Shown: positions 14,088-62,857 of the stretch, one piece after another | Layout of the letters: every line of letters starts with the position of its first letter | Numbering within the stretch: position 1 is the stretch's first letter | DNA from: Bryoerythrophyllum caledonicum | Lineage: Eukaryota > Streptophyta > Bryopsida > Pottiales > Pottiaceae | DNA: 64,000 bases | Direction of reading: 5' to 3' | NCBI GenBank assembly: GCA_963971425.1 | Contig: OZ020523.1 | Location: forward strand, 24,843,105-24,907,104 | Notes under the pieces: model-generated | Told to the model about the DNA's origin: nothing | Databases searched by the model: none | Seen by the model: the letters and a program-made list of their open reading frames with translations, nothing else | Program-made: the position numbers and the translations under genes

Positions 14088-14113
14088 AACGCCATATTCA
14101 TTAAAATGAGACA
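14088..14113 (+). repeat. Left TIR of E1
   Basis: Begins AACGCCATATTCATTAAAAT and differs from the E2 TIR only by G for A at position 4. It is followed by a subterminal inverted pair TGAGAC...GTCTCA (14108-14125) and two more TGAGAC near 14175 and 14200. Confidence 0.92.
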
Positions 14114-14962
14114 TTTCAAAGTCTCATTTTAACATGGTGCCTAATTTTAGGCATTTCATTATTTCATTAATTTGAGACTATGTATTAAATTGAGACTCAA
14201 ACTCTTTTCAAAATCTTGAAGAATCCGGACATATCATAGATTGTTGAATAATTTTTGTATCTAATTGAGTAGGCCATTTAATATGATTTTGTGTGTAAAG
14301 ATATTAGAGTATCAAAAAATATATTTAGATATGGAGCATATTATTTAAGGAAAAATAATACACCATGAAAAAAATTGCATAGCGAGAATAAACTTGACCT
14401 CATGAAAACACATGCAACACTGAATTTTAGGAACCCTAATAGGACTCAAAATTGGACTAAAACACACATATACACTCATTCACCAACCACCTAGAATGCA
14501 TATCTTCACATTTTGAAGAGAAATATTTTCAAATTTCAAAAGCTTATACAACTTCTAGCCAAAATGGTCATTGAGAAGATAACATATATTGTAGCAATTC
14601 ATTAAGAACTTACTATTAAAAGGAAATATCAAAGCATCAAGGATAAATGCACAATCAATCGCAGTGACAATGTGGACCAAGGTTCATTTGTCACCAATGT
14701 AACAAAATAATAGGAACGTTCTATATTATGGAAAGCAACACAATACATCACTTGATGAAACAACAACTTGTTATCAAATTTTGTCTGCAAATATGCTACG
14801 CATGCAACAGTCTACAATTGCATCACATATTAGATACATTGAGTTTGTTACAAGCCTTAAAAGGATATTCCATCCAAGGGCAAAACAAATTCAAATAACC
14901 ACACGTACTTCCACCAATTTCATATTGGGGAATAACTTCAATCCACAAAAACCCGTTGAAAT
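14114..14962. other. E1 3' flank of the DUF7869 gene
   Basis: Non-coding and AT-rich. It is homologous to 34876-35609 of E2: shared stretches include CATCAAGGATAAATGCACAAT at about 14637 and 35279, and AATATGCTACGC at about 14792 and 35434. It is probably the 3' UTR plus subterminal region of the transposase gene. Confidence 0.7.
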
Positions 14963-17775
14963 CTAATAATCAGCTAAAGATGCCTTGATGATGTCCACCT
15001 GTGATTTTGGAATTTTGGGTCTAGACGAGCTCAAGCTCCCACGCAACCTAGGTTTCCACGCAGTTATAATACAATTTGTATACACCCACGTTGGTTCAGA
15101 TTCAGTTTCTTCGACCCAATTATTCCCATGACTAGAATCCCACCCTTCGTATGTGTCCGGACTCACATGACGCATGGATGCAGGTTTGTAGTATTGCACT
15201 TTAATCTCGTGAGAATGTTCACCATCTGGATGCGGATTTGTCAATGCTAAGGCAATCCAAAATGGGCGGAAATCTCCATCAGTAGGACGTATCGCAAGTA
15301 AATAGCCCTCCTACACATCTCTACCAACCCGAAACGATGGAGGGGGACAATGATGTCGTTGTCCAATGAATGGGGGGCCTTCTGCGTAATCCTCTCTCAA
15401 TGTACCGTCAATCTCAAATTCATCCACCATCGATGGTGCGTATCTAGATAGTGGCCAAAATCCCGTTCGTAGGGAAGGCAATTCTTCCAATGGCACGTCG
15501 AGAGCAGCCTTAACACCCCTCCAATAGTACATAATATGTTCATTCTTCCTCCTGTATTCACCCGAGAGATCCTTGTTTGCCATAGACTCCCAGAGACTTA
15601 GAAACCCAGAGATGCCCTTTATAACCTCATCATAATTCTCATGACGTTGCGGAATGAGGGGAAGTGGCTCTCCACGAGGCAATATTGGCCTACCATCCGC
15701 CGCCACCTTTCATAGTTGAATTCCTCCATTCTCTATTGGCAACCAATCCCTATCTGTGCAAAGCAGTTTGTACTGCATCTTGGGCAAACCATCGGAGTCC
15801 TTGTAAAACTTGAATTGTTGGCCCTTTGTATGACCTGTAAGGGCCTCCTTGCCAACACACAAATAGCCTTCTAAAAGCCCTTGAAGTCAAGCACATCTTC
15901 AATGAGGTGTGGAATAACTGGCTTCTCCTCACCATCCATGAATGATTTCATCAAGAGTGGGATCGTTGGATAGCTATTTGACTTAAGTTTGGTACTCCAT
16001 CTTCCAAACATTGCATCAATATCTTCGTGGGTATGACCAACAAGCAAGAAGTTGACGTACACTTCACGGAAAATACCCATATGAACAAGGAGGGAGAAGA
16101 AAGCAAACAAATATTTATTCTTATTGTCCCCTGTGGCATTATCCAACTGCATCTGGAGAATTGGCCGCAATTGTTTGGCAGGAATAGGTTCAGCTGGTTG
16201 AACTGCAAGGGATCCAAAACACATAATAGCATCTGCAAGCACTGCCTCAAAGAGAGGAGAAGCTCTCCCTCTTGCAAATAATTGACGAGAGGAATACACG
16301 GGTGGTCTCTCTAAGTCCCGAAGTAACTTAGCAATGGATCCAACTGTGTGATTCGAGTCGGTGGGAAAGATGTCAAGACTATAATGTGCATAGCGGACAT
16401 CTCCATGTCCATGCGCAATCATCCCTGTTACAGCCACAGGAAGTTTCATGAAAGACTCCGTTGCTTTATTCTTATGAGAAAAATGGGGAGATGCGGTTTT
16501 GTTGTGGTCCATTTTATCATGAATGATGCACACAACCTCATCTGGATTTTCCTCTGAGTTCTTTCGGTTGCCATAATATAGGATACGATGAGTCTGTTGG
16601 GAGGCTTGATGTAACTGTAATTTGACTTCCCACATGTGATATGCGGAGGATCCTCGCGTAGTAGCCTTCTTCAATTGCTTAAGTTGGTCGCATCTCCCAC
16701 AACGAGCAAAGTTGTCACCAGGCTTCTTAGTGGAGAATTGTTCAAATTCAGAGCTTCGAATTCGACTAAGACCTGATAAGGATACTGGTTTGAGGCCAAA
16801 CCTAGCATTCACCGCATTCACTTTGGGTAGCACTACACTCCACTGAAAGGATGATGGAAGATGTTTTGAGATGACCTTCTCCCCACTGCCAAGTGTAGTA
16901 GTCTTATTAGGACTATGATCGGCAGCATCGTCAAGTATGTTGTACAAAGTAGCAATTGCCTGTAGAGTATGAGTGCGGGGCTTCTTTGTGCCACTATTGC
17001 CATGTGGCCCCGCTCGAACTTCATCCTTTGCGTCACTTTTGTACCGGTAGAATGTAGCTCGGCTAACCCCCATGATAGTACACCATGCATCTTGGCAAAT
17101 ATCAATTCCATCAAGCGTCACCACACGGTTTCCATTGGAATCCATGTGCATCTGCCTATGCACATAAAGCAAAACATGTTTCCAAAAATAAACACCTCCA
17201 AAGTCATGGTAAATTTGAGAGCGAAGTATTGAAATTGTACATCGTGGAAATCGTTGCGTACAATTTCTCGGACAACAGACGATGCTTGCCACAGAGTTAA
17301 TCGACTGTGCAGTGAGGAGGACTTTCTTATGCGATGGGGAATGATGCTCTGCCCTTTGACGACTGCTTTCATACTGTCGAACACCAACTCTTGGTCCGCG
17401 ACGAAATACTTTAAGAGCAGCATTGTAAATGCTCGTTTGCTCTTGGTCATACAAACTCACATTACGAAGGAAGATGTATAGAATTGGCCATGCTTGGAGA
17501 GCGAATATCCAATTCAGAGGAATGTCATCCTCATTTAAGGACTCGGCAATCATAACCGCAACATGATCACTTCCAAGTGGTGGACCTCCAGTTTTAGGAA
17601 AAAAACCAGAATCAACACTCTGGCAGAGGCCAATTCCAACATCAGCGCCTGATAAGTTTCGAAGGACAACGCGCTTTGAAAACCAAGACGCTCGAGGAAT
17701 ACCCTTACATGCAGCAACACCTGGAGGCAAGGTTGGTCGCACTTGAAAACCGCTATCAAATGACGCTTCTTCCAT
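14963..17775 (-). pseudogene. DUF7869-type transposase-like pseudogene (E1 copy)
   Basis: Collinear with the intact E2 protein from its N-terminus to the C-terminal SLADY. The first 634 codons (17775-15871) are open and contain the CCPRNC segment, the HTH (IMGVSRATFYRYK), the CGRCDQ pair, IHDKMDHNK, LDNATGDNKN and GHTHEDIDAMFG, so the whole DDE-like core is preserved. The frame is then lost just after DFKGF (about 15880). Homology continues in other frames at 15706-15311 and 15244-14963, with a stop near 15310. Lesions are thus confined to the last third. Two adjacent palindrome arrays flank this gene's leader and the divergent locus, as in E2. Confidence 0.92.
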
Positions 17776-18149
17776 CTACAACAGATCACATTCGAAGGGA
17801 TCAAAGAATGGTTAACCAGTTGTATGAAAAGATGTCAGAAGACAGTTTGAATAAAAAGGGAATACACAGAACAAAATACCGGTTATCAATGACTCGAAAA
17901 TAACCCCTTATCAATTGTACCTTCAAATGAGTTCCAATGGCATTTATGTCCTACTCAACTCTAGGACAACAACAGACATAGAAATTGTTCTCCAAAAAAA
18001 CAATCAAAATATATATAATACATAGAAAATATTGTGGTCATCACAACTTCCGCAAAAATGTTGTTGCCTAAAAACATCATAATAGACACAGAAAAGCCTA
18101 GAATATCTCATCAATGATATTATTCTCTTCTTAATCAGGACGCTTTAAA

Positions 18150-19310
18150 TTATCCTCGACGCGAGGATAATCTGTAAAGAATGTGTACACACAGAGTCGA
18201 TCAAAATTGACAATACCAGTGCAAAACCAAAGTCAAGATAAATCTGATCAAAACCTTCGTCATGCAATATTGGATAAGAAGGTTGAATCCAGTTATCCTC
18301 GAGTCGAGGATAACCAAAACAAAATTTCCGTAGGAAACTAAAAACATCCAATAAAGTTATCCTCGGCATGAGAAAATCCAAAAAATAATATTCCAATCTC
18401 ATTGATTCAAGGATTATAAAACAGTCATCATTCTTTTGGACTAAATGAGAATGTCTCTGATATTTTGGATTTTTATTTTTGAAAAGTAATTGGTTGAGAG
18501 GAGATATCTTCGAGCCGAGGATAACTAACATGTTTACTAAATACTCTGATACCCAATCGTCAGTGTAGACATAATTTATCACGTGTGGTAAAGTATGATT
18601 TTACTTAAGTTTTATCCTCAAGTCGAGGATAAACGTGATGAAATTGTCACTAACTAGACACTTACAAGCTGACTGAAATCATCACAATTTATACAGAAAG
18701 GTCTGGAATATCTCATCAATGATATAATACTTCTCTCAATTAGGACACTCCCAATTATCCTCGACTCGAGGATAATCTATGAATATTATGTGCACAGAGA
18801 TTCTATCAAATTCGACAAAGAAGCATAGCCATAGTAAAGATAAATCTATATTTTACTTTCGTCATGCAATTTGTGTATCAAAAGGATGAATGCAGTTATC
18901 CTCGAGTCGAGGATATTCACAGAAGTATATGTGTAGGAATCTATTCCATCCAATAAATTATATCCTCACCAGGAGAATATCCTTAAAATATAGATAGATT
19001 AGAGGAAATTACAAACAGTCATTATTATTCTGAATAGAATGAGTGTGTCTGTAATTTTTAGATTTTTGATTTCTGAATAGCAATAAATTGAATTCAGTTA
19101 TCCTCGACCCGAGGATAACTTACATGTCTAAAAAATTTCTCATTTCCAATTATGAGTAATAACATAATTACTCACGTGTGGAAAAGTATGATTTAACTCA
19201 AGTTGCATCCTCGAGTCGAGGATATATGTGATGAAAATTTTACTAACTAGATAGTTACGTAACCCTCTCATACAATCACGTGAAATATTGGTATCCTTGA
19301 CCCGAAGATA
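18150..19310. repeat. Palindrome array beside the E1 DUF7869 gene (about 11 copies)
   Basis: Copies of TATCCTCGASTCGAGGATA and variants lie at about 18150, 18293, 18357, 18506, 18612, 18755, 18896, 18961, 19100, 19207 and 19292. The copies at 18755 and 18896 are perfect or nearly so; those at 18357 and 18961 are strongly decayed. The surrounding sequence is itself a diverged duplication: about 18120-18660 and 18700-19250 share the motif order AATATCTCATCAATGATAT, palindrome, GTCATGCAAT, palindrome. Confidence 0.92.
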
Positions 19311-24649: not shown

Positions 24650-25180
24650 AAACTTTCAAACCACAAATCCAAAAAATAAAATAAAAATATGACCACGAAG
24701 CTCTTATGAAAGGCAATCTAGAATAAAAATTTCAGAGATAATTGATTTTTTTCCGAATTTTAGGAACCTGCCCAAAAATTAAAAAATCCCCGAGAAGGAG
24801 ACTTTGGTCCTTTAGAGGTTAACAAGATGGTAATGGATTTAGACGTTGTGTACTGCAAAAATTTGACACCAACTGAAGTCGAATTGTACAGCTGTAGTAA
24901 ATACAGTGGAGAAAATGAACCATTTGGTTGACTTGAAACACTATCATCTTTCAATCCGTGCGGTGAAAGGTTATGAGTTTTTGTAAGTGTTTATTTTTAA
25001 AGTCTTAACCCCTAAAGGACCAAATCTCCTTCGGAGGGATTTTTGATTTTTGGCAGGTTCCTAAAATTCGAAAAAAAATCCTTTTGTCATAAATTCTTAT
25101 TCTAGATTGCCTCTGATAAGAGCTTCGTGGAGATATTATGATTTTATTTTTTGGATTTGTGGTTTGAAAGTTAGTATCAC
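24650..25180. repeat. Long inverted repeat (arms about 170 bp) in the E1 centre
   Basis: 24650-24822 and 25008-25180 are inverted copies. Shared landmarks are ACCACAAATCC with GGATTTGTGGT, GGCAATCTAGAATAA with TTATTCTAGATTGCC, and GGTCCTTTAGAGGTTAA with AACCCCTAAAGGACC. The loop is about 185 bp. The outer flank (24360-24470 and 25385-25490) is repeated in direct orientation. The arm-2 family continues in E2 at 40196-40380. Confidence 0.75.
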
Positions 25181-25650
25181 TTAAAGCCAAAAGTGGGGAC
25201 TCCGGCACCTCCAAATTTTTTGACAAAAGTTTCTATTGACATTGAGATTTTTCCCACAAATAAAGAATATTTCCTTCTTTGGAATTGTTCAAAAAAAAAT
25301 CTTGTCTTTAGTGTTAAAAGGCATTTTATTCCAAGTCAAACATTTTCAGACATTGTTGGGGAAGGGGGGAAAAAATATTCATCTTTTCTACATAAAACCT
25401 AGAGATCTACATATATTTCACTTTTTATTTTTTCAACAACAATATGTGGTGAAAACCTTCTTCTTGACCGTTTGGATTATCATTCAATACAAACGTAGTT
25501 CACAAAAAAAAATCGTGAAATGGCAATTTTTGAACCTCCACTCCTTGCACACTTGTTTTGAATATACTACACCGCTTTTTTACCTCTAAAAAATGGTGTA
25601 ATGGGAAATAACATCATGCTTAAGGCAATGGTAAAAGATTTAGACCTTGT
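25005..25650. repeat. Central segment shared with E2 (40196-40846)
   Basis: Collinear with 40196-40846 of E2. Both read GGGGACTCC, then TTTCTATTGACATTGAGATT, then TACATAAAACCTAGAGATCT, then ATGGTAAAAGATTTAGACCT. In E2 the homology is cut at the Tigger insertion. It contains no convincing ORF, so it is conserved only as element backbone. Confidence 0.75.
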
Positions 25651-25699
25651 ACAATGCAAAAATTTGATGCAAAATGAAGTAAAACTCTGCTTATCTACT

Positions 25700-26280: not shown

Positions 26281-26284
26281 CTCG

Positions 26285-27219: not shown

Positions 27220-27711
27220 TTATCCTCGAGTCGAGGATAAACTCCCTTAACGATAGTGTGCAAAATTATATAGTCTGACATCACTAAACCGTTACAGACA
27301 GAATGAAGAGGTCAGGATAAGAGTTATCCAACCATACAAGAGTCGTAGCTTATCCTCGAGTCGAGGATAAACCGTTTGTTTTTCAATTTTGCTGCCTTAA
27401 AAATCCTAAAAATACCACCTAACAAGTCCAACATCCCAAATTATCCGCAAGTCAAGTATACTTTACGTAATTCAAAACTTCCAAATCAGTAGAGCTGACA
27501 GTCATATACCGTTAATCATAGTCATGGTATCATTCTACCTCATCTTATTTAATCCTACAAATACCGATGTCTGATATTTGCTTATGCTAGTTACAGTCTT
27601 AAATCCGTCAGCAACGAAACGAAAGCTATCCTCGACTCGAGGATAAAAAACTTAACCGCGGTCAATCATAGCGAAGATTAGAAGATACCAGTTATCCTCA
27701 ACTTGAGGATA
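27220..27711. repeat. Palindrome array upstream of the E1 ParB-like gene (5 copies)
   Basis: Copies at about 27220, 27353, 27441 (decayed), 27628 and 27692, ending 48 bp before the ATG at 27759. The first two are perfect (TATCCTCGAGTCGAGGATA). Confidence 0.92.
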
Positions 27712-34849: not shown

Positions 34850-34875
34850 AACACCATATTCATTAAAATGAGACA
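34850..34875 (+). repeat. Left TIR of E2
   Basis: Begins AACACCATATTCATTAAAAT and is identical over 26 bp to the complement of 62266-62291. Just inside, TGAGAC and GTCTCA form a small inverted pair (34870-34888), with more TGAGAC near 34937 and 34957. Confidence 0.93.
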
Positions 34876-35609
34876 TTTCAGAGTCTCAATTTATCATGGT
34901 GTCTAATTATAGTGAATTTTATGTTTCATTAATTTGAGACTATTTATTAAATTGAGACTTAAGCTCAATTGAAATTGCCAAGTACTACATCCTAAAAAAT
35001 TATCATAGCAAGAATAAAAATACTTCTTAAAAATTTGAGCGGATATAAATTTGAGCATCCCTAGCAGGGCTCAAAATTAAACTAAAATAAGACATTTACA
35101 CTCATTTATAAGCCACCCAAAATGCATGTCTTCTCAATTTAAAGGGAAATAAAAATTACCAATTTCAAGAAGTGGTACGTGTTTCAAACAACAAGGTCAT
35201 TAAAATACCAATCACTAAAAATTTAGCACATACTCTAGAAATACATTCAAATATTTATATTAATAGAAAGTATCCATGCATCAAGGATAAATGCACAATT
35301 AATCAAACACACAATGTGAACCACAATTTATCCATCAATAACTTTATAAACAAACGGCAACGTTTAATGATATTGAAGCAACACAATACATCACTACATG
35401 AAACTACAAATTCTAATCTAATGTTCTCTACAAATATGCTACGCGAACATTCAAAGTCTCAATTCCACGACAGACCCCCATGTTCAGTATATACTTAGTA
35501 CAATATCTAGTCCAAAACAACACAAGTTCAAATAAGAACATGCACCCCCACCTATTTCGAATTACTAGAATAACTGTTGCCATCAAAAAACAAAAAAACC
35601 TGTTGAAAT
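34876..35609. other. E2 3' flank of the DUF7869 gene
   Basis: Non-coding and homologous to 14114-14962 of E1. A 108-aa plus-strand frame (35172-35498) is Asn/Ile-rich and not conserved in E1, so I leave it out. Confidence 0.65.
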
Positions 35610-47887: not shown

Positions 47888-48537
47888 TTATCCTCGACTC
47901 GAGGATACGTTCTAGACCTTCGTCTAGCAACTTATGCTCGAGTCGAGGATAAGAGTCCATCCTCTGATTACATTTTATCCTCGAGTCGAGGATAAAATAA
48001 GTAAAAAAAAAACTAAAATATCAATTCCGCTTAATCAAAATGTTCTACAAATTTCTACATCTCAGTATTAGGTGTCCTTGAGTCGAAAATAAGTGTAAGT
48101 CTGTGCAAACAGATCTATCTTGCTTATCAAATAATTTGACACATCAGAATACTCACCATTAATAGGTTGTATTGAACTGATGAATGATATATTCTAACTC
48201 AGAACCCCTTCGTAAGTAATAGAATTATCCTCGACTCGAAGATACTTGCGAGTCCCAAGGTGATTAGTCTATGTTCCAATCAAGATTAAAAGAATATATT
48301 AAGAAAATAATCTAACAAGGATGAATTAGGACTGATGCACAAAAAATATAAAACATTTCTGTAACGAATTATCCCAGTATCCTCGAGTCGAGGATACAAT
48401 TCAACCTCTGACACTAACGATAAAAAATAATTATTTCACAATGAAAATAATGCTCAGATACTTTAGCCGAGGATGTGTTCAGAATATATATTATCTAAGT
48501 CAGAATCAGTTGATAACTATCCTCGACTTGAGGATAA
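47888..48537. repeat. Palindrome array upstream of the E2 ParB-like gene (about 8 copies)
   Basis: Copies at about 47888, 47930, 47973, 48074 (decayed), 48226, 48379, 48462 (half) and 48518, ending 60 bp before the ATG. The first three are only about 40 bp apart. Confidence 0.92.
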
Positions 48538-49965
48538 TAATAAATGTTATCATCTAACTCGTTTTGCGAATGAGTCCTCGCAGACAACCTCATCACAATG
48601 GATCCCACCGACGGCTACGACTACTCGGGGTCAACGTACTTCATCACGGAGTTCGAAAATCCCTTTGCCCCGCTGCCATTCATCGACGATGTCGTCGAGA
48701 ACTACGGCAAGCTTTGGTCGTTCAACCCCGACATCTTAGGATGGACCCTCTTCAGGTCGGAAAAGAACGTTCATCTATCGTTCAAACTGAAGGAGGAAAT
48801 TCCGTATGTTCCACTGAAGAGAAACGAGAGAGTAACATTCGTGGAGCAACGCCGTCGTGATTACATCGTTCTCGGTATCCAGGCCGTGGACGATGCTGGG
48901 AAAGACCTACCTCACTTTCACTCGATTGTTGTGAAAGTCGGTGACACTTTCGGACAATTTGACTTCATTGAATTGCTTGAGAGTGCCGATAAGAATGGAC
49001 AGGGGGCGCTGCGTCAGGCGTTTGAAAAATACAGTCCGTGGTCAAACGACGACGCTGAGAAGGTTAACATGAGACTGGTACGTATTCACCAACTCCTATC
49101 GAACTTTGAGGCCCGTCCGGTTCCGGTCGCTCCACCTCCACGACGTCGGCCCAAGCAGAAGAGCGCAACAGCTGGCGAGGTTACCACAGAAGCGGCAGAT
49201 GCGACTCGAAGCACGAGTCGTGGTGCACCCCGGAGGGCTTCTGAGATGGCGTCAAACCTAGGGGAACCATCAAAACGGAAGAAGACTGCTGCGGCCGGTG
49301 GAAGTTCGACCTCAACTGTTACGAGGGCTGCAACACCGGTGAAATCGCGGAATGACCCACAAGTGGACTTCGAGAAGATAACGGAGTCCCAACGACTGTT
49401 TTGGGAGGAATGTAAGTCATGCTTTCCGTTCGAGTCCACCTTCACAGTAAACATCGAACAGTGTGTCCCCGCAAAAGCCCAGTTCGTGATTCGTGGGATG
49501 GAGGAGGGCATTGTCCGGAACTCCATGGACTTTCTTGTCCAACTTGGAGAAGTAAACCAACGTCAGAAAATTTGCATCTGCCCGATCGATGACGCTGGAG
49601 AACCGATAACAAATCGTCCAAATTCCTGGGACGATATCAAGGGTGGGAAGTTCATGCTGATCAACGGCCAACACAGCGTCGAAGCTTCCAGAAGACTTCA
49701 ACGTGTTGAACAATGCGGGGAGCAACGAAAATGAGACCTGTGCGAATGGGATGCATATGTTGTCTGGACAACGGATCCTCTGAAGTTGCAGAGGATTTCA
49801 AAGTTCTACAACGATACAAACTACCTTGATCATGCCCAACCTACATGGGGGAACCAGATTTCAAGCTGCAGGAGAATCTGGCTTAACTCTGGTAGACCCA
49901 GCTACCAACACGACGAGGGCGACTTGCGAATGAATGGTGCCAACTTTGACCAAGAGAAGTATTTG

Positions 49966-50140
49966 GTAAGGTTCCAGTTCCCGAAGTATCCTCGACTCGA
50001 GGATAATCTTTCATGGCTTTTATGTGCTCCCGCTAGTTGATTTATTATATGCATCTTGTCAAAGTATCCTCGAGCCGAGGATACTCTTCCATGCGGTATC
50101 CAAGATAATGTTTTCTAATGTTGTCTGTATTGTGATGCAG
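49966..50140 (+). other. Intron 1 with two palindromes
   Basis: GTAAGG...GATGCAG. Palindromes lie at 49987 and 50065. The E1 intron (29136-29281) holds one at 29159. No other conserved feature. Confidence 0.8.
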
Positions 50141-51463
50141 TTGTTTGCGAAGTTGATTGTCACACGCTTCCAGAACATCGATCCCACGAGGGAAGGAAAG
50201 CAAGTGAACAAGTCATCGGACCTTACCAATGAGATTAAGGTCATCACTCTTCCAGATGACATTTTCAACCTCTGGGAAGAATTCCTCGATCAGCACAGCC
50301 GCGGAGACATCGTAAACCCCGACAGAGCTTGTCCATACAAGGACGCTCGGGGTTTCCAGCCTTCCCCAATCCACCGTGAGTTTTTTAAAAGGTTGGGTCA
50401 TCTGTCTGACCAGGATTTAAGAGATTTGTTCACTTACCTGGTTGACAGTGATCGCGGGCAAGGATATCCGAAGGTCACGCTTCGTAGGACTGGTGTGGTA
50501 CATGGATCGTGCTACCACTACGAGGAGTGGGCTGATCGAAGGAAGAAGAAGCGCGTCGTTATGCAGGAGCTGGTGCACATCGACCCATCCTTATTGTTCT
50601 TACTTCCGAATGGGTCGATCGACGACGCAATGTGGAAGGAGTGGAAGGAGAAACACCGTGTATCTTCCGCTACATACAACATGCTCCTCTGTCAACCCGA
50701 CAAGGAGTTCTGGTCGATGAGGTTGACCAATGCGGGGAAGCTGAAACGAGCTTCTCATCTCCTGGAGAAGTTCCCGAACGTTCTTCCGTTCTTCAAGAAA
50801 TTTCTACATTTGAAGAACCTCTTCACCCCGCACGACGGATATGTGAAACTCCGCGAGTTTAATGCAGAGAAGCTGGAGTTTGGTGATTACTTCACCCCTC
50901 CAGATGATTCTAAGGAGTTTACACTGGGACTTCTCGACCTCCGTGAGGTACCCGGATGGCTGTCCAAGGACGACTCCTTGGACGAACCATACTTTGCAGA
51001 CTTCATGAATGCCATGAAGTTGCAAAAGAGTACCCCAAACATGAGCACTCCTCATGTTTGGGTCTGGATCACCTCCTCTGCCAATCGTGCGTTGCAAGCG
51101 GCAAAGTTTGCCGAGAAGCGAATGGCCCGGTATTCGCCCGTCTCCTCGGCGTACGTTTCGTCAGCGAATGAGCGCCTGTACTACGGGACGTCCAGGGCTA
51201 AGGTTACGGATGTTAACCTACTCTTTTTAGTGAAGAAGAGTCATCCCCAGGCTTCCGTACTCATCAACAGAGTGAGGCTGTTCTACTCTGCACCAGATAC
51301 GTTCTTCTACAAAGAGAAGAATAAGTACCTGGAGGTAGAATTCTTCGTCCACGGCTCCGAATTACGGATGGAGTTTTACTTGGAGCTACTCCAGGACTTC
51401 TGCAATCAAAAGGAGAGGGTACTCGGAATTTTCTGTGGTTCCAAATTTATGCTGTCCAATCTG

Positions 51464-51693
51464 GTACGATCTCTTTTGAATCATTGTAGTCTATCCTCGA
51501 GTCGAGGATACAGCTTACGGTATGCTGTCGTCTGTTATTTTGTAGTCTATCCTCGAGTCGAGGATAGCAAGTTCTATCTGATCATTAGTTATTCAGTTGT
51601 TTATCCTCGAGTCGAGGATAGACAACTGATTTCATTTCAGATAAAATTTGCCATTATCCAATTTCTAATCTTATGTTCTCATGTCTCATGCAG
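51464..51693 (+). other. Intron 2 with three perfect palindromes
   Basis: GTACGA...CATGCAG. Three identical copies of TATCCTCGAGTCGAGGATA sit at 51492, 51548 and 51602, 54-56 bp apart. The E1 intron (30605-30867) has two, at 30634 and 30771. Confidence 0.85.
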
Positions 51694-53938
51694 ATGTTTG
51701 GAACGTCTTTCTATGGACTCATTGATGAATCCTTCCGGCTGCAGTACAAGAATCAAATGCAGCGCATTTTTCAGTTGGATATGAATGATTTCATACACAA
51801 GGACTGTGCTTACCTCCAGCCGTTGCCAACCAACGTTGGAGGTGCATCTACATCGACCGCTCCGGCTGCACCTCCGGAACGCGTTCCAAGGGCCCGAATA
51901 TCGCCAAGGAGGGCTGAACGTGTTCGCAGCCGTGCTCAACGCTCAGGTGCTGGATCTCGGCAGGACTCCCCCGAGACCCAGAGGGCATCTGGTACCGGCG
52001 CACCGACTCTGCAGCCTACTCAAGATGACTCTCCCTTGCTCGTCAATCCATATGGGAGCAATGACGGCGTTGATCTTTTGATCCTTAGCTTGGATGATTG
52101 TGAACCGTCCTTCCGATCTCGTAGTAGATCGCCGCCTCGCCGACCTCCTATGCTGGCGGACGATGACATTCCGGTAGACGGCGAAGCCGTTTATATGGAA
52201 GTTCAAGGCGGTCCTGACATATCTCATTTAGTTGGTACAGCCCCCTCACCGGGTGTTCCCGTTGCTGGTACCGCCCTTTCAGCAGGTGTTTCTGTCGTTG
52301 GTACCGCCCCTTCAGCAGATGTTTCTGTCGCTGGTACCACCCCTGCAGCAGTTGTTCCCGTCGCTCGTACAGTTGTCAAGTACGTCCCTGTCATCCTGCT
52401 GTCCGACTCCAGTGATGATGAAGGTGGTGATCGTCCCAGTACATCTCAGAATGTGGTGTCACCGACCGTGTTGACAATGATGGTTACGATGGATGTGGAG
52501 GATGCTCCCATACATGAGGCCGCCTCTGCAGATGCAGCTGGGCATGCTCCGGCCCCTCGCCCTCCGGTGGAGGGCGCCTCTGTGCTTGATGACACCTTCG
52601 CAAATGCAGCTGGTCATGCTCCGGCCCCTGGTCTGCCTGTGAAGTACGAACCCGGTGCTGACTTTTATGAGCACCAACACAAGCAACGCCTTCAGGAACA
52701 GCAGGAGAGGCAGACAATCTTGGCTCAGTTAGAGGCTGCCCAGAAGAGACAGGCTGAGATGGAATCTGCTTTCGAGAAGCAGCGGGCGGAGTCTGATGAA
52801 CAGAAGGAGAGAATGGCGGCATCAATCCGTGCGGAGATCCAAGCGCAGATGTTGGTGGAACTCAACAGACGTCTTGTTGAGCAAGCTCACATTTCGGTTC
52901 CCATCCCCGTTGCTCCATCGAGATCCGTCGTGTCTCATCCCTCCACTTATCCTCGCATCGAGGATAACTCTGTGGCTGAGCCTCTGCTTCGTTCAACTGG
53001 ATTGCAACCTTGCACTTCATCTAACCCAGTTGGAGAAGCCTCAGTTTCGGTTGAGGTGCCAGTTCTTCACGGGGATATCCCCTCTTCATCGTCCGGGCCT
53101 TCTGAGTATCCTCAACCCGAGGATACCCTGCCTTATAATTCATCTCCGATTTCGCCTCTGATAGATGGGGTCGGCTTTTCTGTTCGTGTGCGTGAAGTTA
53201 ATGTTGAAGGTGCGCCTGGTGGTTCGACTCTTTTGGTCCCTGCTCAACTTGTGGAAGAGTCGTCTCATGCGGTAGCTGCGGTGGAGGGAGAAGAGGTGTG
53301 CATGGAGGAGCGCGTCGACTACGAGCCGTCTCCCGAGCCTCAGGGACCACAGTCATCAGAGGTGGATAAGGTTGGCTAGCTGTTTAATACATTTTTGCCC
53401 GTTTTATCACGAAGTGCAGCCTTGATTTTTTGGAATGACTGTGCTCAGCCTCAGACTCAGTAGGTTTTTTCTTGGATGTGTTTCCATGCAGGAGTCAGAT
53501 CCATACGCATTTTGATGTACTATACGAGGAGTGTATATTTTTGTAAATACAATGTTATCATAATTTCAAAGAATTGTTTAACGATTCATTTTCTTCAATT
53601 GTTTCTCAGATTGGATTGGATGACATTGTCCACCGTCCTCTTGCATTGAAGTCTCCAATTGGGATAGTTGTATCCCAGTCGCTATGTGGGGGGGAATTTG
53701 TGCAAGCAGTGGCAATTCCATTGCATATTACTCAATCTGCATTTTATCAGGTACCTACCACTTATTGCTACCATTGACTGTATCGTGTGTTGGTCCTGTC
53801 CCAGGACCTTGTTCCTAGAACTGTGTTCGTTGTTGAGAGCGCCGGACCAGCAAAGTGGCTAAATCTCGTCATGGATTTGAATGGCATTCTATGCGTGACG
53901 GATTCAGTCTCTATTGCTGTGAGGCTTACCGCGCATAG

Positions 53939-56900
53939 TGTTGCAGTTTGTAGAGTAAGTAGTCCTCCGGATAGCAATTAGTTGAAGCTAAATGTGTCCG
54001 GCATGGTCGCTCTAAATTCGTTCCCACAGAGATCTATTGTTTCTTCTTGGAATGCTAAGTAAGCTACCTGCTATCCCTCTACCACACGCCAGTTAGTATT
54101 CCTATTTTATGCCTGACCTTTTTATCCGGATCCTTCCGGACGTCCAATGTAGTTTCCTACTATTTTCTGGGGCCTGCCAACTTCCGGAGGGTCAGTTGGA
54201 GTTTGTCTTCCGGAGTTTTTAAACGAGTGGCCGGGTACCACTGATCCTATTTTGTGTAAGTGGCCGGATTCCCCACTGCCTTGTGACTTTAAGTGGCTAG
54301 GCACCCACTCTCCCTAGGCTGCTAATTGGTCGTTGGTTTGTTGTTTCCGGATGCACTCTCTCACATTATCCGGAAGGCCTTCCAGATACGGTCACACAGA
54401 GGCTCACCCGGACTACAACGACATTCTGGGAAATAATTAGTGGTTCGGTGAGGTGTGAAGGGTAGATCTGCATTTGGACTTCCTTCTAGACATACACCAC
54501 AGACTTTTCCATCTATTGTAAGGGGAAATTCCGGTCACCACCAGAATCCGGGTTCACACGGAATCTCCGTGCCCTAGGAGCTACCAGGCCACCGCCTAAA
54601 GTACCCTCCCTCCCCCTCCAGGCTTCTTCCGGTCACCAAGGATCGTCAGACTCTACCTAACCTCTCCTTTAGCTGTTCCGGGCGCTCTCCCACAGCAAGT
54701 CCCAACCGGTTAGACTAGATGCTTATCTGTGAACCACTTCAGCTTCCCCAACTATTCCACTAATCATCAACCACAATGGGCCCTATCCTTCATTCACAAA
54801 ATGATACATGCCACCATAATTTCAATGCAAGAAAATATACTAACAGCAAATATCATTCCTGAGGAAAAGAAAAAAAGGCCCTTAGCCGGCCACAACTCTT
54901 GCGTTAAGAGCCCGCTACTGCTGATCTAAAATCGGAACTAAGAAGCTAAAAATCCGGGAAATCCTATCCTAAAAGTGAAAGGGATATTATCCCTAGAAAT
55001 CCGGAATTCAAACCTAGATCCGAAAGTTTCGGATCTGAGATCCGGTTTCTACGGATCTAATTCAAAAACTAAAAGGAAAACTGTCTTTAGTCTTATCGCA
55101 TGATAGCCGGGTGCAAGCTTGAGCCCCATCGTTAATCGCATATCAGACCTTTAGAACTAAAGATTCTATTCTACGGGGTTACTTGGTTCCGCCTCCGACT
55201 GCTACGGCGTGAAGGGGTAACTTTTGATGGAGAGGCGCCGGCCTCGGTTTGCGCCGGAATGGCTGCTGGTGGTTCCGGTGCAGTGGTCGGCGTCGGCATA
55301 CCTGGTCCGGATGGTGCATCTGGGTCCCCTGTTGCAACCGCCTGGCCGGATGGTGCATCAGCCCGGTCTTCAATGTCCGGAAGGTCCCGGAAGCTACCGC
55401 TGGGGCTGACCACCATGGGTGTCGCTGCCGAGCTTCCGGGTAAAGGATCCGTCACTGGTGGCCCCGGAGAGGGAGACTCGGAGGGAATTCGGAAAGGCAA
55501 GGGTGGTACTACCTGACTTCCTGGCACCTGTTCCCACGTCTGCATACTCTCCGTGCTTGGGAAGGCCACCCCATTCCAACTCATAGGAGAGCTGAAGTCC
55601 GGCGTTCCCACGAGGTCATTGAACTGTCCGGTGAGTAACTTTGTTGTTCCAGATGCAGGTCTGGGTGAAGGGCCGGCCGGAGGTTGAGAAGGAGAAACAG
55701 CTGCCGGACCGGATGGGGATCCGGACGGGCCGGCAGTGTTTCCAGACGGATCTGCCTGGGTTCCGGATGGTCCCGCAGCATCTGAAGCAGGAGGTGCCGG
55801 AACTGGAGGTGGAGCTCCTGGTACTGTTGAGGTGGCCGCGACGAGCTCCCTCGCTAGCTCCTGCATCTTGGACCAAGTGCCCTCCATTTTCCGGCTGTGA
55901 TCTATCAAGAATCGGATAACCTGCCCCCTGCTGAGCTTCTCGTTCTTCTCCAAGCTCGCCGTGTAGAGTAATGCCCGGTTAACCGTATCCACCGGAAAAT
56001 TCAGTGCCGTGCGAATATCGATCAGTGACTGTGACGCCGCCCGGACCTTCGTTTCTGCCACCACTCGGGCATGCTGTGCTGCATCTCGTGCGGCTTCCGC
56101 CTGCCGGACCTGACTCCAGAGCCGGGTGTTAACCTTGGTTATGGTGGCGTTTTCCTGCTCCAGTCTTGCGACGGAATCGTGCTTCTCCTTCATCTCTCTG
56201 AGCTGGGCGATGAGGTGAGTGGTGTCCTCCAGTCCGACTGCCTCTAAGATGGCCATTATCATGGCATGCCTCTCCCGGATCTCCCCCTCCTGGATCCTGG
56301 TCCTCCAGACAATATGTCTGCACAGCTCGTGGACATCCACGGGAATGTCGCCAATGATGCTTGGGACAAATGTCGGTCCCGGCTCTGATCCGGTCGCGAA
56401 TCGTTCGTCTTCTGGGGCCGGTTCCGGTGCGGCAGGCTGTGCTGTGGTTGGTGGTGCTATGGGTGGGCTCTGCGCCGGGATTGTTGACAACGGCCGGCAT
56501 TCTCCCGGGGTCTCCGGAGTCCTCTGCACCGAACGACTACGCTTCCGGTTCGGTCTTCGAAGTATAAGGGGGGATGACGACTTCTCCGTATCAGAGTCCG
56601 TCGATTCATCCAGTTCCTCATCTGTTTCCATCCCTCCGTATGACTGGATGGTGAGCAAGCTGTCGTACTCGGCCTGCTCGTCCGGACTCAACATCTTCTG
56701 CTTGGCATACATGTGAGCCAGGTAGGTGGAGAGTGGGGATGGGGTTTTCCGGGCTTTCGGCAGGTTCTTCACCATCCGGTCAATCTGCTCGTCCATGATG
56801 GCCGCCCAGTCGACAGACAGCTTCCCTCTCATCGAGCCTAAGATTAGGGTTGCTAGCTTGGCCACTATCCGTTTCGGTTTCTCGGGGTGGAAAATAGGAT

Positions 56901-57794
56901 TGACGAATGCCATTACTAACCTGGCATCCGGATCGGTGAGATCGCTGAGGACATACCCGTCCTTAGGGTTAGCCTTCGCGCGGAATTCGCCCTTCAGGAT
57001 GGCGTCGTCCCGTTCCGCCACCTTGATTGTTCCTGCTCGGAACTCGTAGGTATCTCTCCAGAGCGTCGTGGTCCAGACCTCCGGATGCGCCCTAATCTTC
57101 TGTGCGTATTGGCTTGGTGGCTCTCCCAGAAGCTCCGTCATCATTGTGTTGCTCTGGTAGGCCCACGGTGTCGCTAGAAGACCTTCACAACCCATGATTT
57201 CGAGATAGCTCTCTAAAACCCGACAGGTCTTGACCGGCTTCGGAATCTCCGGAGTTACCTTCTGCAGCACCAGTGTTTCGGTAGCCGGAGCCTTGCCCTT
57301 CTTGCCCGCCATCCGTGCCCACCTCTCCGTGAACTTGCGCCTCGCAATATTGTCAAGAGAACCTGCACGCACTGTCCTCACCAAGTCCCTCTTGCTGAAC
57401 TAAATTGGCTCTTCCGTCCTGCATCAAGACCGGATTCAAAACCCTAGGAGAAGGCGAGAAGGGAAAAGAGAATGAGCCTGCTGGAAACCCTAAAAGATTG
57501 GTGCACAGGGCTGCCAGTCGCGTTTTGTATCTGACGCGCTCGTACGGAAAACAGTTATGCGTCATGATGGCATTTCCGGTTCCAGCTGTAACCGCCCTCC
57601 GGTTTTGCAACTTCCGGGAAGGGTGCCGTAACTATCTTCATTAGGGATTCCGGCGCAGCACTAAAATCTTATTCCATTTCAAGAACTACTTATGCTCTTT
57701 TAGTCAACTAACTAACTAATTTTTCTAATTTTTTTCCTTATTTTCTTCCGGGATTGTATTAAGTTCCGGAAGTATGTGGGGACAATTTCCCACA
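53939..57794 (-). mobile_element. LTR-retrotransposon-derived insertion, 3.86 kb, TSD CATAG
   Basis: Starts TGTTGCAG and ends CCCACA, between CATAG at 53934-53938 and CATAG at 57795-57799, exactly interrupting the HAD-like exon. TG...CA ends and a 5-bp duplication are those of an LTR element. I see no long direct repeats at the two ends, so it is either a long solo LTR or a non-autonomous derivative. It carries one ORF on the minus strand. It is much more GC-rich than the host sequence, with many TCCGG words. Confidence 0.85.
55171..57384 (-). CDS. 737-aa plant-transposon-type protein, gag-like
   Basis: Intact ORF starting MVRTVRAGSL; a second Met at MAGKKGKAPA is possible. Residues about 50-240 resemble the 'putative plant transposon protein' domain: YLEIMGCEGLLATPW, FVNPIFHPEKPKR, GKLSVDWAAIMDEQIDRMV, then TPSPLSTYLAHMYAKQKMLS. 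Next come an acidic Ser patch with RRPNRKRSR, a helical region about 345-530 likely to form coiled coil (REMKEKHDSVARLEQENATI), and a Pro/Gly/Ser-rich tail. No protease, reverse transcriptase or integrase is present. The family is known from plant LTR elements; its biochemical role is unknown. It is uninterrupted, consistent with recent insertion. Confidence 0.75.
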   Translation of the reverse strand: MVRTVRAGSLDNIARRKFTERWARMAGKKGKAPATETLVLQKVTPEIPKPVKTCRVLESYLEIMGCEGLLATPWAYQSNTMMTELLGEPPSQYAQKIRAHPEVWTTTLWRDTYEFRAGTIKVAERDDAILKGEFRAKANPKDGYVLSDLTDPDARLVMAFVNPIFHPEKPKRIVAKLATLILGSMRGKLSVDWAAIMDEQIDRMVKNLPKARKTPSPLSTYLAHMYAKQKMLSPDEQAEYDSLLTIQSYGGMETDEELDESTDSDTEKSSSPLILRRPNRKRSRSVQRTPETPGECRPLSTIPAQSPPIAPPTTAQPAAPEPAPEDERFATGSEPGPTFVPSIIGDIPVDVHELCRHIVWRTRIQEGEIRERHAMIMAILEAVGLEDTTHLIAQLREMKEKHDSVARLEQENATITKVNTRLWSQVRQAEAARDAAQHARVVAETKVRAASQSLIDIRTALNFPVDTVNRALLYTASLEKNEKLSRGQVIRFLIDHSRKMEGTWSKMQELARELVAATSTVPGAPPPVPAPPASDAAGPSGTQADPSGNTAGPSGSPSGPAAVSPSQPPAGPSPRPASGTTKLLTGQFNDLVGTPDFSSPMSWNGVAFPSTESMQTWEQVPGSQVVPPLPFRIPSESPSPGPPVTDPLPGSSAATPMVVSPSGSFRDLPDIEDRADAPSGQAVATGDPDAPSGPGMPTPTTAPEPPAAIPAQTEAGASPSKVTPSRRSSRRRNQVTP

Positions 57795-58304
57795 CATAGC
57801 TCACAACGGACTGATTATTCGTCCACCATTCCTACCTTGATTGGACCAAAGGCGGTCTACTTTCGTCCTGCTGTTCGTGATTTCTTATCGGTCATCAGAA
57901 ACTTTCTGAACTCTGTCGTCATTTGGAGCTCTATGAAGAAATCCACAGTCGAGGCGATCGCGGCTTGTCTCTTCAGGGATCTGGGGCCTCCTTTTCTTGT
58001 TCTAGGTCAAGAGAAATGTTCTCAAATAAAAACTTCGCGGAATGTGTACCTCATGGCTAAAGATAAAAAGGAGAAGCCAATGTTTTTGAAAACCTTGTCG
58101 AAAACGTTATTTAGTCTTCGGCATGAGCCGGTAGTCTTTAACTCCGACAACACTCTTCTTATAGACGACAGCCCGGAGAAGAGTGTTTGTAATTTCACCG
58201 GGAACGCCATCTTCTTGCCTTCATGGAGACGCGGGGATACGAATGATAATGTTCTTACCGGGACCCTTCTTTCGTGGCTTCGCCGCTTGCATTCTGAATG
58301 TCCT

Positions 58305-60351
58305 TGTGAGCCGCAAAAACGGCTCACGGTGATGAATGGACCTCACGTCGGGTCCATTAAGGCTAATGAGTGGTGAAAATGGGTTATCCCATGGACTAGC
58401 TCGTGGTTTGTTGATTAAAATGGCCAAGTGGTCTTTCCCCTCACCAAAAGAGGAGCATTTATGGGCAATCGCGGAATTTATGTAGTTAGCCAAAGAGGAA
58501 GAAAGAAAAAAGAATGGGGCGTTGAAGGCCTTTAAAAAAAAAAATAGTCAAAAGGGTCCAAAAAGAAGTGGAAAAGAATCCTCATCAATCACTAAGTAGA
58601 TTAGGAATTACCCCAAGCAAGGGGAATTCAATTTAGGTAGGTTAAATTAGATTTTTGCACCTTTGAAAATTAGCTAATAGCTCACTTATTGAGATCATGC
58701 GCACCCATGTGGCTTGGAGTTAATGTTTAGATCTAGATATTCCTTGGTTAGTGGGACACCCACTCTTGTTAAATGCAAGGGTGGCACGGAATTAGTAGTG
58801 ATAGGGTTAGTAGGGTTGTAAGAGGGAAGCCATTTATGGGAGGAGGCCAAAGGCGGCAGGGAACGTCTTTGGGAACTCAAGGAGAGCAAAGGTTGGAGGG
58901 GGTTACCCCCTGGAGAGGTCTCATTATTTTTGGGGAGAGAGAGGGGGGTGTGTGTGTGCGTGTAGGAGGAGAGACTGATGTCGTGTAGGAGGAGAGACGA
59001 ATTAGAGCAGGAGCTGGAGACGATCAAGACCACGAGGAACAAGACGATCCAGAGCACGAATTAGAGCAGGAACAAGACGATCAAGAGCACGAAGAAGAGC
59101 AGGAGCTGAAGACGATCAAGACCACGAGGAACAAGACGATCCAGAGCACGAAGAAGAGCAGGAGCTGGAGACGATCAAGACCACGGGGAACAAGACGATC
59201 AAGAGCACGAAGAAGAGCAGGAGCTGGAGACGATCAAGACCACGAGGAACAAGACGATCAAGAGCACGAATTAGAGCAGGAGCTGGAGACGATCAAGACC
59301 ACGGGGAACAAGACGATCAAGAGCACGAAGAAGAGCAGGAGCTGAAGACGACCAATACCACGGGGAACAAGACGATCAAGAGCACGAATTAGAGCAGGAG
59401 CTGAAGACGATCAAGACCACGAGGAACAAGACGATCAGGAGCACGAAGAAGAGCAGGAGCTGAAGACGATCAAGACCACGGGGAACAAGACAATCAAGAG
59501 CACGAAGAAGAGAGCCGGAACTGAAGGAAGAAGGGTGAATCGAATCAACCAGGGAGCCTCTCCTCGCCCCCCTGGCTAGTAGTAAATTCCTTATGCAGTA
59601 AGGAACCCTAATTTTTTTCCTAAATACTAAAACCACACGGAAGCACTGCCAATTTTTTGCTAGAATTAGGGTTTGCTCACGCTCAACTAAAACAACCGGA
59701 TAAAGGGTCCTTAGGAAGAAAGAAAAAATCAGCTGGAGGTCATTTGTACCAAGGTTGAAGTGGGTTCTCGTGTGAATGGATGTATGTATGGAGATGTGGT
59801 GCATGACCTTGAATAAAGTCATATGTTGAAGGTGCGCTGTTGGTCGCTGGCGGTGAGGTTCAGGGTCGAGTCAATTGACCAATTGAATGCTGCCATCATG
59901 TTAAGCACAAAAAACTAATAAGAATAAAAAAAACAAACACAAGAATCGGAGTTAGAGGCAAAGAGATAATTAGAATCATAATCCGGGAGAAAATAGGGAA
60001 ACCTGCCTGCTGCCGACTGGTTCCAGGGTCACACCTAAGCCTGAACCTAATCACTAAGGGTCTAACCAGGTTTGGAACGTTGAATTGAACCCTTAAGAGC
60101 TGAAAAAATTGCATTCGGAGCCCTAGAACAAAAGTTACACTCGTTCGAAGGTAGGGTCAATTAAAAGGCTGAATTGAGTCGCCACCTCACTAATCAACCA
60201 CAAGGAACCTAAAGGGCATGAGATGTGCCACCATGGTACTATGAAGTGTAAATAAATGGGCTGAAGGTGGGTTGCACGAAGGATTGAGCCCCGTATTAGG
60301 ATCTTGTGTTCAAGGTAGGCCACCCTTTAGGGGTGGTTTATTTGGCTCACA
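58305..60351. mobile_element. TG...CA insertion of 2.05 kb, TSD GTCCT (solo-LTR-like)
   Basis: Begins TGTGAGCC and ends GGCTCACA, an 8-bp perfect inverted terminus, flanked by GTCCT at 58300-58304 and 60352-60356. It interrupts the HAD-like exon. No ORF with protein-like composition is present, and a 60-bp minisatellite fills the middle. The size, ends and 5-bp duplication fit a solo LTR or a small non-autonomous retroelement. A DNA transposon with short TIRs is less likely but not excluded. Confidence 0.82.
58980..59520. repeat. 60-bp minisatellite, about 9 units
   Basis: The unit contains GAGCAGGAGCTGAAGACGAT and ACAAGACGATCAAGAGCACG. Units are nearly identical, with alternating variants (GAAGAAGAG versus AATTAGAG; CACGAGG versus CACGGGG). 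Only the AATTAGAG variant adds stops in some frames, so frames remain open by chance. Confidence 0.9.
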
Positions 60352-61569
60352 GTCCTCTTGGGCAGTTGAAGAATTACGTCGATAGTAATCGTATAGGGAC
60401 ACCTCCTTTGGTGCGTGATAGTCCTATGATGAAGCATATCATTGATGGAATGACGCTCTCCACATGGAACATGGGTACTGCGTACGAGATTCCTAATGTT
60501 TTTATATCAGCTCCTAAATAGTTGTAGGAGTAACTCCTGCTCAAGATATAGGGGAACTTCATATATGTAGGGGTTTTCAATGTAGGTTTAGTGCGCTGGA
60601 TACATTTTGTGATATACTTGTAGCTAAAACGTACTTGTAAATCTTGTATATATTTTGAAAACTGTTAATATATAAATCCGTTCGTTTTCTCCTTCTACAT
60701 ATTTGTCGTGTTTGTCACCTCTTATGATTCCATGAACTTATCTTCGAGTCAATCATAATTTCATTGCCTTGCATGTGTTTCATGTTTCTTTCTCTCATTC
60801 CTTGCTTTATTCTAATGTATTTCAGGTTTCAAAGTCTAGTGTTAATCCTACCGCATGCCTGAATATTGGTAGTATGCTGCCCTCGAATGTTAGCGTCATT
60901 CCGGAGTACTCTGGGTCTTATGGTGGTGACATCTCCCAGCCCCAACAATCGAAACCATATCTTATGTGCACTGCAACTGATGCTGCCTCTGCTATCATGG
61001 ACTTCTCCAAGCAGAAGGTCGATGATGGTGTTGTGGATAGCCCTCCCGAGCGGAGGGCTGGGATAGTGCCTGTTGCATCCCCTTCACCACTCAAGCGGAT
61101 GTTTGCTGAAGTTCAAGATAGAACCGATTGTACTCCTCAACGGAAGCTTTACGGAGATGATGGTGTCCATCTGAACATGGAGAAGGAGGATGTGCCTAAT
61201 TCTTCCGATCGTAGACAGCCGCCCGCTAAGCAAAGCCGGTATTCCGCTACACGTTCTCAAGGTACAATGAAGGAAATAGCCCGTCCCAGTTGTTCAGTGC
61301 GCTGTCAAACTCAATCTGTGGGTGTACAGCCAAGGCTTTGAAGCTCGGGACCGTCAACGAATCAAGTGAAGTCCGTTCCGTCTCGAGTTCGTGATGGTCG
61401 TGGGGCTGATATTGGTCTGTGTCCTATGTCATCACTTTCCGAGAGTGTGCTAGCAGTTGACCCGGATTGGTGTTTTAAGCCTTATTCTCGGAGAAGGGAA
61501 ATCATGATTGGTTATGCAAAATTTAAAGCACAAGAGGCATTGCGTCTGAAGGCCCTAGAACTTGAGTAA

Positions 61570-62265: not shown

Positions 62266-62291
62266 TGTCTCATTTTAATGAATATGGTGTT
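62266..62291 (-). repeat. Right TIR of E2
   Basis: Exact complement of 34850-34875, followed by GAAG (62292-62295). Confidence 0.93.
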
Positions 62292-62436
62292 GAAGGTGAA
62301 GTACATGGAAATTGATGATTGGTATAAACCTTACTCTCGGAGGAAAGAAATTATGATTGGATATGCAAAGGTGAAAGCACAAGAGGCGTTGCTTTTGAAG
62401 GCACGTGGAGTTGGATCAAATTTGTCCAAGTCTTAG
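62292..62436 (+). pseudogene. End of the E1 FCP1-like locus, displaced by E2
   Basis: With one GAAG removed, it continues the frame left at 34849: ...LLSTK joins VKYMEIDDWYKPYSRRKEIM and runs to a stop after GSNLSKS. It is clearly homologous to the same C-terminus in E2 (DWCFKPYSRRREIMIGYAK, ending 61569). This displaced exon proves that E2 sits inside E1. Confidence 0.9.
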
Positions 62437-62831
62437 TAATAGTTATAGTGTAATTTTGGATGTCTTATAGAAGTCGCTTGGGTAATTCTCCCCTTACTTA
62501 TAGACACATTAGTATTATATTTTAATTCTATTATTAGGTAGTGGTTTATCCTTATTCTTTAGGTGAATAGTGACTTGAATTATATTTTGAGTGGTTTGGT
62601 TTTGTACCAGATCCAGTCCCTGAGAAATAACATATATTTCCAGTCAATGTATTTATCTTTTACAAGTATATGTGTGTAATGCTATTGTGGAGTGTTGGAT
62701 TGATCATGTTGTTGATATGATGGATTTGTGATGTTTTCACTTATGTTGTATGTTGTATGCTTGAGTTTACAGTAACTTTTCGTTTGTTTTTATTCCGAAA
62801 TATTAGGGTATTTGTCTCAATTTTCACATTT
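62437..62831. other. E1 right subterminal region, non-coding
   Basis: Separates the last codon from the right TIR. AT-rich with no ORF. Contains TTGTCTCAATTTTCACA just inside the TIR, a subterminal GTCTC copy. Confidence 0.6.
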
Positions 62832-62857
62832 TGTCTCATTTTAATGAATATGGTGTT
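62832..62857 (-). repeat. Right TIR of E1
   Basis: Complement of the 26-bp TIR, followed by AAAG (62858-62861), the right target-site duplication. Open frames that begin here (SHFNEYGVK) are read-through of the TIR into Tc1 and not a native start. Confidence 0.92.

Follow-up and report, generated by a model that had tools for sequence, protein, structure and literature searches.

Sola transposons encode transposases with an aspartate triad (DDD), create 4-bp target site duplications, end in terminal inverted repeats (TIRs) of 11-1124 bp and sometimes exceed 15 kb, according to the accessible part of PMC10741241. Their published lengths are mostly 2-9 kb, and both Sola and Sola1 are present in Physcomitrella (PMC10741241, PMC9033089, partial texts). 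In Ectocarpus, the 21.5-kb element Sola1-1_Ec32 carries on the strand opposite to its transposase a ParB-methyltransferase gene, whose product of 1,104 amino acids (aa) is predicted to be active and to produce N4-methylcytosine (4mC) or N6-methyladenine (6mA); in the accessible text, the authors suggest that proteins of this type attach to the element encoding them and modify it (PMC12477816). Self-recognition is also described for Arabidopsis VANC proteins, which attach to noncoding parts of the elements encoding them; these targets are often tandem repeats and vary from one related element to another (PMC5735166, PMC10398659, partial texts). Here we describe giant TIR transposons of the moss Bryoerythrophyllum caledonicum, found in a 64-kb stretch of contig OZ020523.1 (the window) as one element, E1, interrupted by a second copy, E2, and accompanied by a partial copy, E0 (Table 1). 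E1 and E2 combine a DUF7869 gene with a second locus on the other strand that has ParB/methyltransferase-like and FCP1-like parts. The elements are real transposons that were mobile in the past and exist in many closely similar copies, because their termini, duplications, shared gene content and the empty sites of E2 all document this.

The 26-bp terminus occurs five times in the window and in none of 100 shuffles; all five termini were found, as were the AAAG and GAAG duplications that an original prediction from the sequence had assigned to E1 and E2. E2, which measures 27.4 kb with later insertions included, is nested inside the right arm of E1 and does not lie beside it, and E1 minus E2 is therefore about 21.3 kb long. 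The E2 empty site, constructed by joining the two E1 flanks, matched three sister copies without gaps (identities of 98.75% and 96.75% over 400 bp in two of them and of 98.5% over 397 bp in the other), with a single GAAG at the junction in each. These intact sites are therefore a direct record of the E2 insertion and its 4-bp duplication. Two independent adjacent insertions were ruled out by the nesting and by the empty site in the sister copies. E0 was correctly predicted to be partial: it lies on the opposite strand, has a single end, and its sequence at 9063-12535 shows about 78-84% identity to E1 and E2.

Genome-wide searches covered the 437-Mb assembly, in which the window lies on contig C11. 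With at most one mismatch, 540 termini were detected (271 forward and 269 reverse), while the reversed pattern, used as a control, gave 0. A 151-bp left-end query, with the element starting at base 39, yielded 39 matches besides the window among the best 40 of 419 candidates scored; these begin at query base 28-44 and are 95-99% identical. The spacing of termini was analyzed for the first 100 places listed, all perfect and all on contig C1: 16 neighbouring pairs were at most 30 kb apart, 11 of them faced inward, and 8 of these 11 spanned 17-21.5 kb, compared with a mean of 0.22 and a maximum of 3 such pairs for randomly placed termini (1,000 trials). Ten pairs were picked because their termini face inward at 18-21 kb from each other; three of them have left ends from the left-end search, and every one of the ten has a perfect 4-bp duplication. 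In four further inward pairs the duplication is perfect in two, matches at 3 of 4 bases in one and is absent in one; overall, E1 and E2 included, 14 of 16 inward pairs carry it in perfect form. On contig C1 (65 Mb), the 100 listed perfect termini lie at 2.4-47.5 Mb, against 540 (at most one mismatch) in 437 Mb; termini may be enriched on this large chromosome, which, as a guess, might be a sex chromosome.

Eight elements were mapped end to end and range from 18,211 to 20,588 bp. In each of the eight, DUF7869 lies near one end on one strand, and the other strand carries first the ParB/methyltransferase-like gene and then the FCP1-like part. The four further inward pairs contain fragments of each of the three coding regions, which are thus represented in 12 of 12 inward TIR pairs with content read; in these copies, the outcomes named as refuting the original prediction did not occur. 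The giant two-locus TIR family proposed by the original prediction, including its expected inward pairs with 4-bp duplications, is thereby borne out, and a plant genome with 18-21 kb cut-and-paste elements in many similar copies is documented. Among three element middles compared, those of EF and EH are not conserved, and those of EH and EA have some repeat-like pieces in common. A repeat with 79% identity is common to the middles of E1 (25005-25653) and E2 (40192-40848), with inverted copies nearby; it is perhaps a smaller nested element.

The DUF7869 product is probably a DDD transposase, the role for which it had been put forward. A sequence search with the E2 copy found 83 relatives, those named by organism belonging to the mosses Ceratodon purpureus and Physcomitrium patens, and D420, D545 and D587 are invariant among the relatives in an RNase-H-like order and position. 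A family named only as a DUF thus gains a probable function and a testable tie to a known superfamily. Both loci, DUF7869 and the second one, are under selection. Across its whole gene the E1 copy has 2 stops. No DUF7869 relatives were found among viral contigs. Three contigs binned as bacteria (L001, L002 and L003) contain DUF7869 relatives, which are probably contamination from mosses and other eukaryotes.

The second locus is under purifying selection. In E2, where splice borders were read by eye from the sequence, exons 1-3 together comprise 1,458 codons, one of them a stop. The ParB-like motif GQHSVEAS is present in 9 of 10 copies, and the fold of the exon-2 product matches N6-adenine methyltransferases. 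Active N6-adenine DNA methyltransferases have a catalytic DPPY/W and a glycine-rich S-adenosylmethionine motif. The DPPY/W position reads DLR in nine of ten moss copies and NLR in EH, motif I is G-x-[FY]-[CS]-[GS]-S-K in all ten, and in 19 aligned sequences D is invariant at the DPPY/W position and DPP occurs in none; judging from these motifs, the fold has probably lost catalysis. Active FCP1/SCP phosphatases have a DxDx(T/V) catalytic motif; this position reads DLNG, DING, DLSG or DNNG in 8 of the 9 aligning copies and NINS in ED, with E2 unaligned. The FCP1-like label itself held, through the Pfam NIF match of E1 (Table 1). The ParB/methyltransferase-like and FCP1-like parts may form either one fused product or two neighbours.

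Of 7,999 candidate proteins scored against the spliced ParB/methyltransferase query, none reached E 0.001; exon 2 alone recovered 17 protein relatives, and sequence searches of PDB gave nothing significant (best row E 0.038). Between E1 and E2, identity at third codon positions is 71% in DUF7869, 45-46% in exons 1 and 2 and 52% in the FCP1-like part; for EC and EF the figures are 89% in DUF7869, 78% in FCP1 and only 54-57% in the stretch separating these two. The history of the ParB/methyltransferase module is therefore deeper, or the module has been exchanged. Across E1, E2 and loci L035-L052, subfamilies differ far less in DUF7869 than in the ParB/methyltransferase part; EC resembles a mosaic.

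A palindrome, TTATCCTCGANTCGAGGATAA, recurs with its near forms in both gene leaders, in introns 1 and 2 and, at corresponding positions, within exon 3; its general form is (N5)TCG-ANT-CGA(N5'), with a length of 19-21 bp. The window contains 55 sites (at most four mismatches), compared with 1-6 in five single-base shuffles, in agreement with the arrays predicted for both leaders. Genome-wide, 2,975 places were found with at most one mismatch and 0 in the control. Chance palindromes were ruled out by the shuffles and by this control. In intron 1, counted in 8 of 10 introns (EC and EE were left out, their borders not being located), the palindrome sits 22-23 bases from the exon end in all eight, and whole-intron identity is merely 53-59% in three compared pairs. 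Of 78 distinct palindromes in the listed part of contig C1, 59 have a listed terminus no more than 20 kb away, the expected share being 4.4%.

The design recurs, with other arms, in a relative from a different assembly. This 4.3-kb contig, L001, filed under a cyanobacterium, encodes a DUF7869 relative at 47% identity, and TTTAGCTCGANTCGAGCTAAA stands three times in front of that gene, in two cases with a single change; the core and length of this palindrome equal those of the window palindrome, and its arms differ. Palindrome-like residues were also observed at the ends of exon-2 relatives, namely LSSTRG in P0095, LSSSRG in P0096, YPRLED and ILDSRI in P0099, and YPRTGD and YPRPGD in P0111; in these protein sequences, such residues are what intron-2 palindromes would encode. 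Three viral contigs have one exact palindrome each, and one of them a second, weak one.

Compared with the described systems, the moss elements show the 4-bp duplication of Sola and a TIR length, 26 bp, within the Sola range, and in 8 of 8 elements the gene opposite the transposase combines a methyltransferase part with a ParB-like part recognized by its motif. Sola1-1_Ec32 is alike in giant size and in its ParB-like/DNA methyltransferase gene opposite the transposase, and its accessible description does not mention palindrome arrays (PMC12477816). The moss elements differ from it in their altered methyltransferase motifs, FCP1-like part, palindrome arrays and the 1,458 codons of exons 1-3. 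Sola1 of Physcomitrella is alike in its 4-bp duplication, TIRs and moss host and has a DDD transposase, as the DUF7869 protein probably is, and a second conserved locus is unmentioned in the accessible parts of the Sola descriptions (PMC10741241, PMC9033089). KDZ and giant EnSpm elements are likewise large DNA transposons with accessory genes (PMC12477816, partial text). Their transposases and duplication lengths, however, are other than those of the moss elements. KDZ duplications are about 8 bp, and those of EnSpm 2-3 bp with CACT/G ends; the moss ends read AACRCC with 4-bp duplications, and EnSpm/CACTA ends are absent. The VANDAL/VANC system would resemble the moss case in having an element-encoded protein with its own noncoding targets, often tandem repeats in the partial texts cited above, and the leader array of E2 lies partly in an 82-bp tandem repeat. 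In contrast to it, the moss motif is a 19-21 bp palindrome with a function inferred from sequence. VANDALs are Mutator-type elements and, to our knowledge, VANC has no ParB or methyltransferase domain. Sola is unmentioned in the accessible part of the moss paper PMC7466625. A literature search found no report on this moss element; it did not cover the palindrome and the FCP1-like part, whose novelty is thus not established by search. What appears to be new here is a second locus with a ParB motif, a motif-less N6-methyltransferase fold and an FCP1-like part, together with a conserved palindrome.

The explanation that we consider likely is an autonomous-type transposon of the Sola kind, in which DUF7869 is the transposase and the second locus (less likely the transposase) reads the element's own palindrome and controls its copies. 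The transposase would cut at the 26-bp TIRs and join the element into targets staggered by 4 bp. The second-locus protein, or with less likelihood the transposase, would recognize the palindrome and, once bound, may act on promoters and transcription units of the element itself, marking and controlling its copies as an autoregulator or anti-silencing factor. Anti-silencing like that of VANC would be the closest precedent by analogy, and simple autoregulation is the plainer alternative. The regulator or helper role originally proposed for the second locus is supported as a reading; its function, like catalysis, the palindrome-binding protein and the effect of binding, is what we infer. A more specific scheme, offered tentatively and with considerable doubt, is a moss Sola-type self-recognition in which a ParB-motif/dead-methyltransferase/FCP1-like protein would read the family-specific palindrome and protect or control the copies that carry it, protein and palindrome arms co-evolving between lineages independently of VANC and from different protein parts. 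A maintained motif-less methyltransferase-fold protein and a genome-wide palindrome allow a direct test of transposon self-recognition and regulation.

Other explanations were weighed against this one. That artefact or coincidence has placed repeats around unrelated genes can be dismissed almost entirely, being refuted by the 540 termini against a control of 0, the 14 of 16 perfect duplications and the empty sites. The elements could instead form a DNA transposon superfamily unrelated to Sola, with DUF7869 as a transposase type not yet described: a full-text search found no paper on DUF7869 (many subscription papers were outside its reach), Foldseek gave no significant structural relative, and the likeness to Sola1 was set by description and not by direct sequence comparison. 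However, the 4-bp duplication, aspartate triad, moss host and opposite-strand ParB-methyltransferase all match published Sola/Sola1, which makes this reading very doubtful. Since these Sola traits and the Ectocarpus precedent are already described, the elements are probably not a new superfamily; of the originally proposed "superfamily or family", the family stands and a superfamily is not shown. They fit the Sola kind and, within it, would probably be filed under Sola1. It is also quite improbable that the second locus encodes a working DNA methyltransferase which, in the way suggested for transposons of algae, places 6mA or 4mC on the element. Its fold does match N6-adenine methyltransferases, and the Ectocarpus relative is a predicted 4mC or 6mA maker (PMC12477816, partial text), but the altered DPPY/W position and motif I of the moss copies argue otherwise. 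As a further possibility, the palindromes might serve mainly as transposase-binding or assembly sites, with the second locus a passenger. Subterminal repeats of En/Spm offer a parallel for such sites, palindromes are present in the transposase leader too, and L001, a short contig showing only the transposase part, has them. This reading is nonetheless unlikely, as the palindromes also lie in introns and exons of the second gene, that gene is under purifying selection, and the distance from the left end to the first of them is at least 3.7 kb in most elements and 2.8 kb in ED.

Several observations weigh against the Sola-type self-recognition explanation that we prefer. Lying kilobases from the ends, the palindromes might be used just as well by the transposase or by a host factor, and for 19 of the 78 listed on contig C1 the distance to any listed terminus exceeds 20 kb; two clusters of this kind, read in part, are inside ParB-bearing copies. 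The Sola assignment was matched by published traits rather than transposase sequence. For DUF7869, in-frame stops occur in 7 of 10 copies, and EB and EE have frame changes; its structural match to integrases is weak and, among the transposases and other structures listed in that comparison, tied with unrelated rows, no Foldseek match to the model reached E 0.001, and the model has low confidence in parts of the catalytic region. The whole-gene dN/dS (ratio of nonsynonymous to synonymous rates) of DUF7869 is 0.24-0.44 in close pairs or with degraded copies, where it runs higher. For exon 2 the corresponding values are 0.15-0.18, likewise running higher, and 3 of 9 pairs gave no value; the second-locus estimate is rough because dS is near saturation. 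Of the ParB/methyltransferase label, the methyltransferase fold was matched, and the ParB domain is a motif alone, with no Pfam or NCBIfam match above cut-off. Among the TIR pairs, an 18.1-kb inward pair matches in its duplication at 3 of 4 bases only, a 9.3-kb inward pair is internally deleted, with partial genes and no duplication, and a 2.2-kb outward pair has, as expected, none of the genes.

Table 1. Positions of the transposons and their features in the window
Feature	Position	Strand	Remarks
E0, partial copy	8163-12532		opposite orientation; one TIR, DUF7869 piece, leader palindromes
Palindromes of E0	8163-8969		leader
DUF7869 remnant of E0	8990-11670	+	nine inverted matches
TIR of E0	12507-12532	-	26 bp; search match 12507-12529
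AAAG target site duplication of E1	left 14084-14087, right 62858-62861		outer flanks
E1, giant TIR transposon	14088-62857		interrupted by E2; TIRs and AAAG duplication
TIR, left end of E1	14088-14113	+	26 bp; search match 14091-14113
DUF7869 gene of E1	15871-17775	-	634-aa open part of broken copy; Pfam 2.2e-38
Palindrome array, DUF7869 leader of E1	18152-19309
Palindrome array, ParB leader of E1	27222-27710
E1 counterpart of ParB/methyltransferase-like gene	27780-32546	+	approximate borders; broken by stops and frameshifts
FCP1/NIF-like part of E1	33006-33770	+	Pfam PF03031 1.6e-14; DxDx motif reads DLNG
GAAG target site duplication of E2	left 34846-34849, right 62292-62295		outer flanks
E2, second copy in right arm of E1	34850-62291		TIRs and GAAG duplication
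TIR, left end of E2	34850-34875	+	26 bp; search match 34853-34875
DUF7869 gene of E2	35610-38423	-	open over 937 aa; Pfam 2.2e-46
Palindrome array, DUF7869 leader of E2	38570-39376		partly in 82-bp tandem repeats
Palindrome array, ParB leader of E2	47890-48535
E2 exon 1	48598-49965	+	N-terminal part and ParB-like motif FMLINGQHSVEAS; one in-frame stop
Intron-1 palindromes of E2	49988-50082		E1 counterpart 29158-29174
E2 exon 2	50141-51463	+	methyltransferase fold, altered motifs
Three intron-2 palindromes of E2	51493-51619		E1 counterparts 30636, 30772
E2 exon 3	51694-53379	+	continues past methyltransferase motif I, then low-complexity and coiled-coil-like
Exon-3 palindromes of E2	52949-53124		read YPRIED, YPQPED; E1 counterparts 32074, 32272
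FCP1-like remnants of E2	57823-60493	+	split by insertions; further piece ends at 53887
TIR, right end of E2	62266-62291	-	26 bp; search match 62266-62288
TIR, right end of E1	62832-62857	-	26 bp; search match 62832-62854

Open frames follow the FCP1-like part in the window (34289-34906) and at locus L047 (6932-8026), the latter with no Pfam or NCBIfam match above cut-off. An insertion within the FCP1-like part of E2 contains a 742-aa open frame (55171-57399, minus strand) with no Pfam match, and a second insertion in E2 has a 59-bp tandem repeat of about 7.5 copies with 93% matches (59010-59571). Elsewhere in the window, a 977-aa open frame (4509-7442, minus strand), also with no Pfam match, includes a 21-bp repeat that codes for DPVDRSS-like heptads and recurs about 29 times, and a 62-bp tandem repeat of about five copies with 94% matches lies between E0 and E1 (12895-13195).

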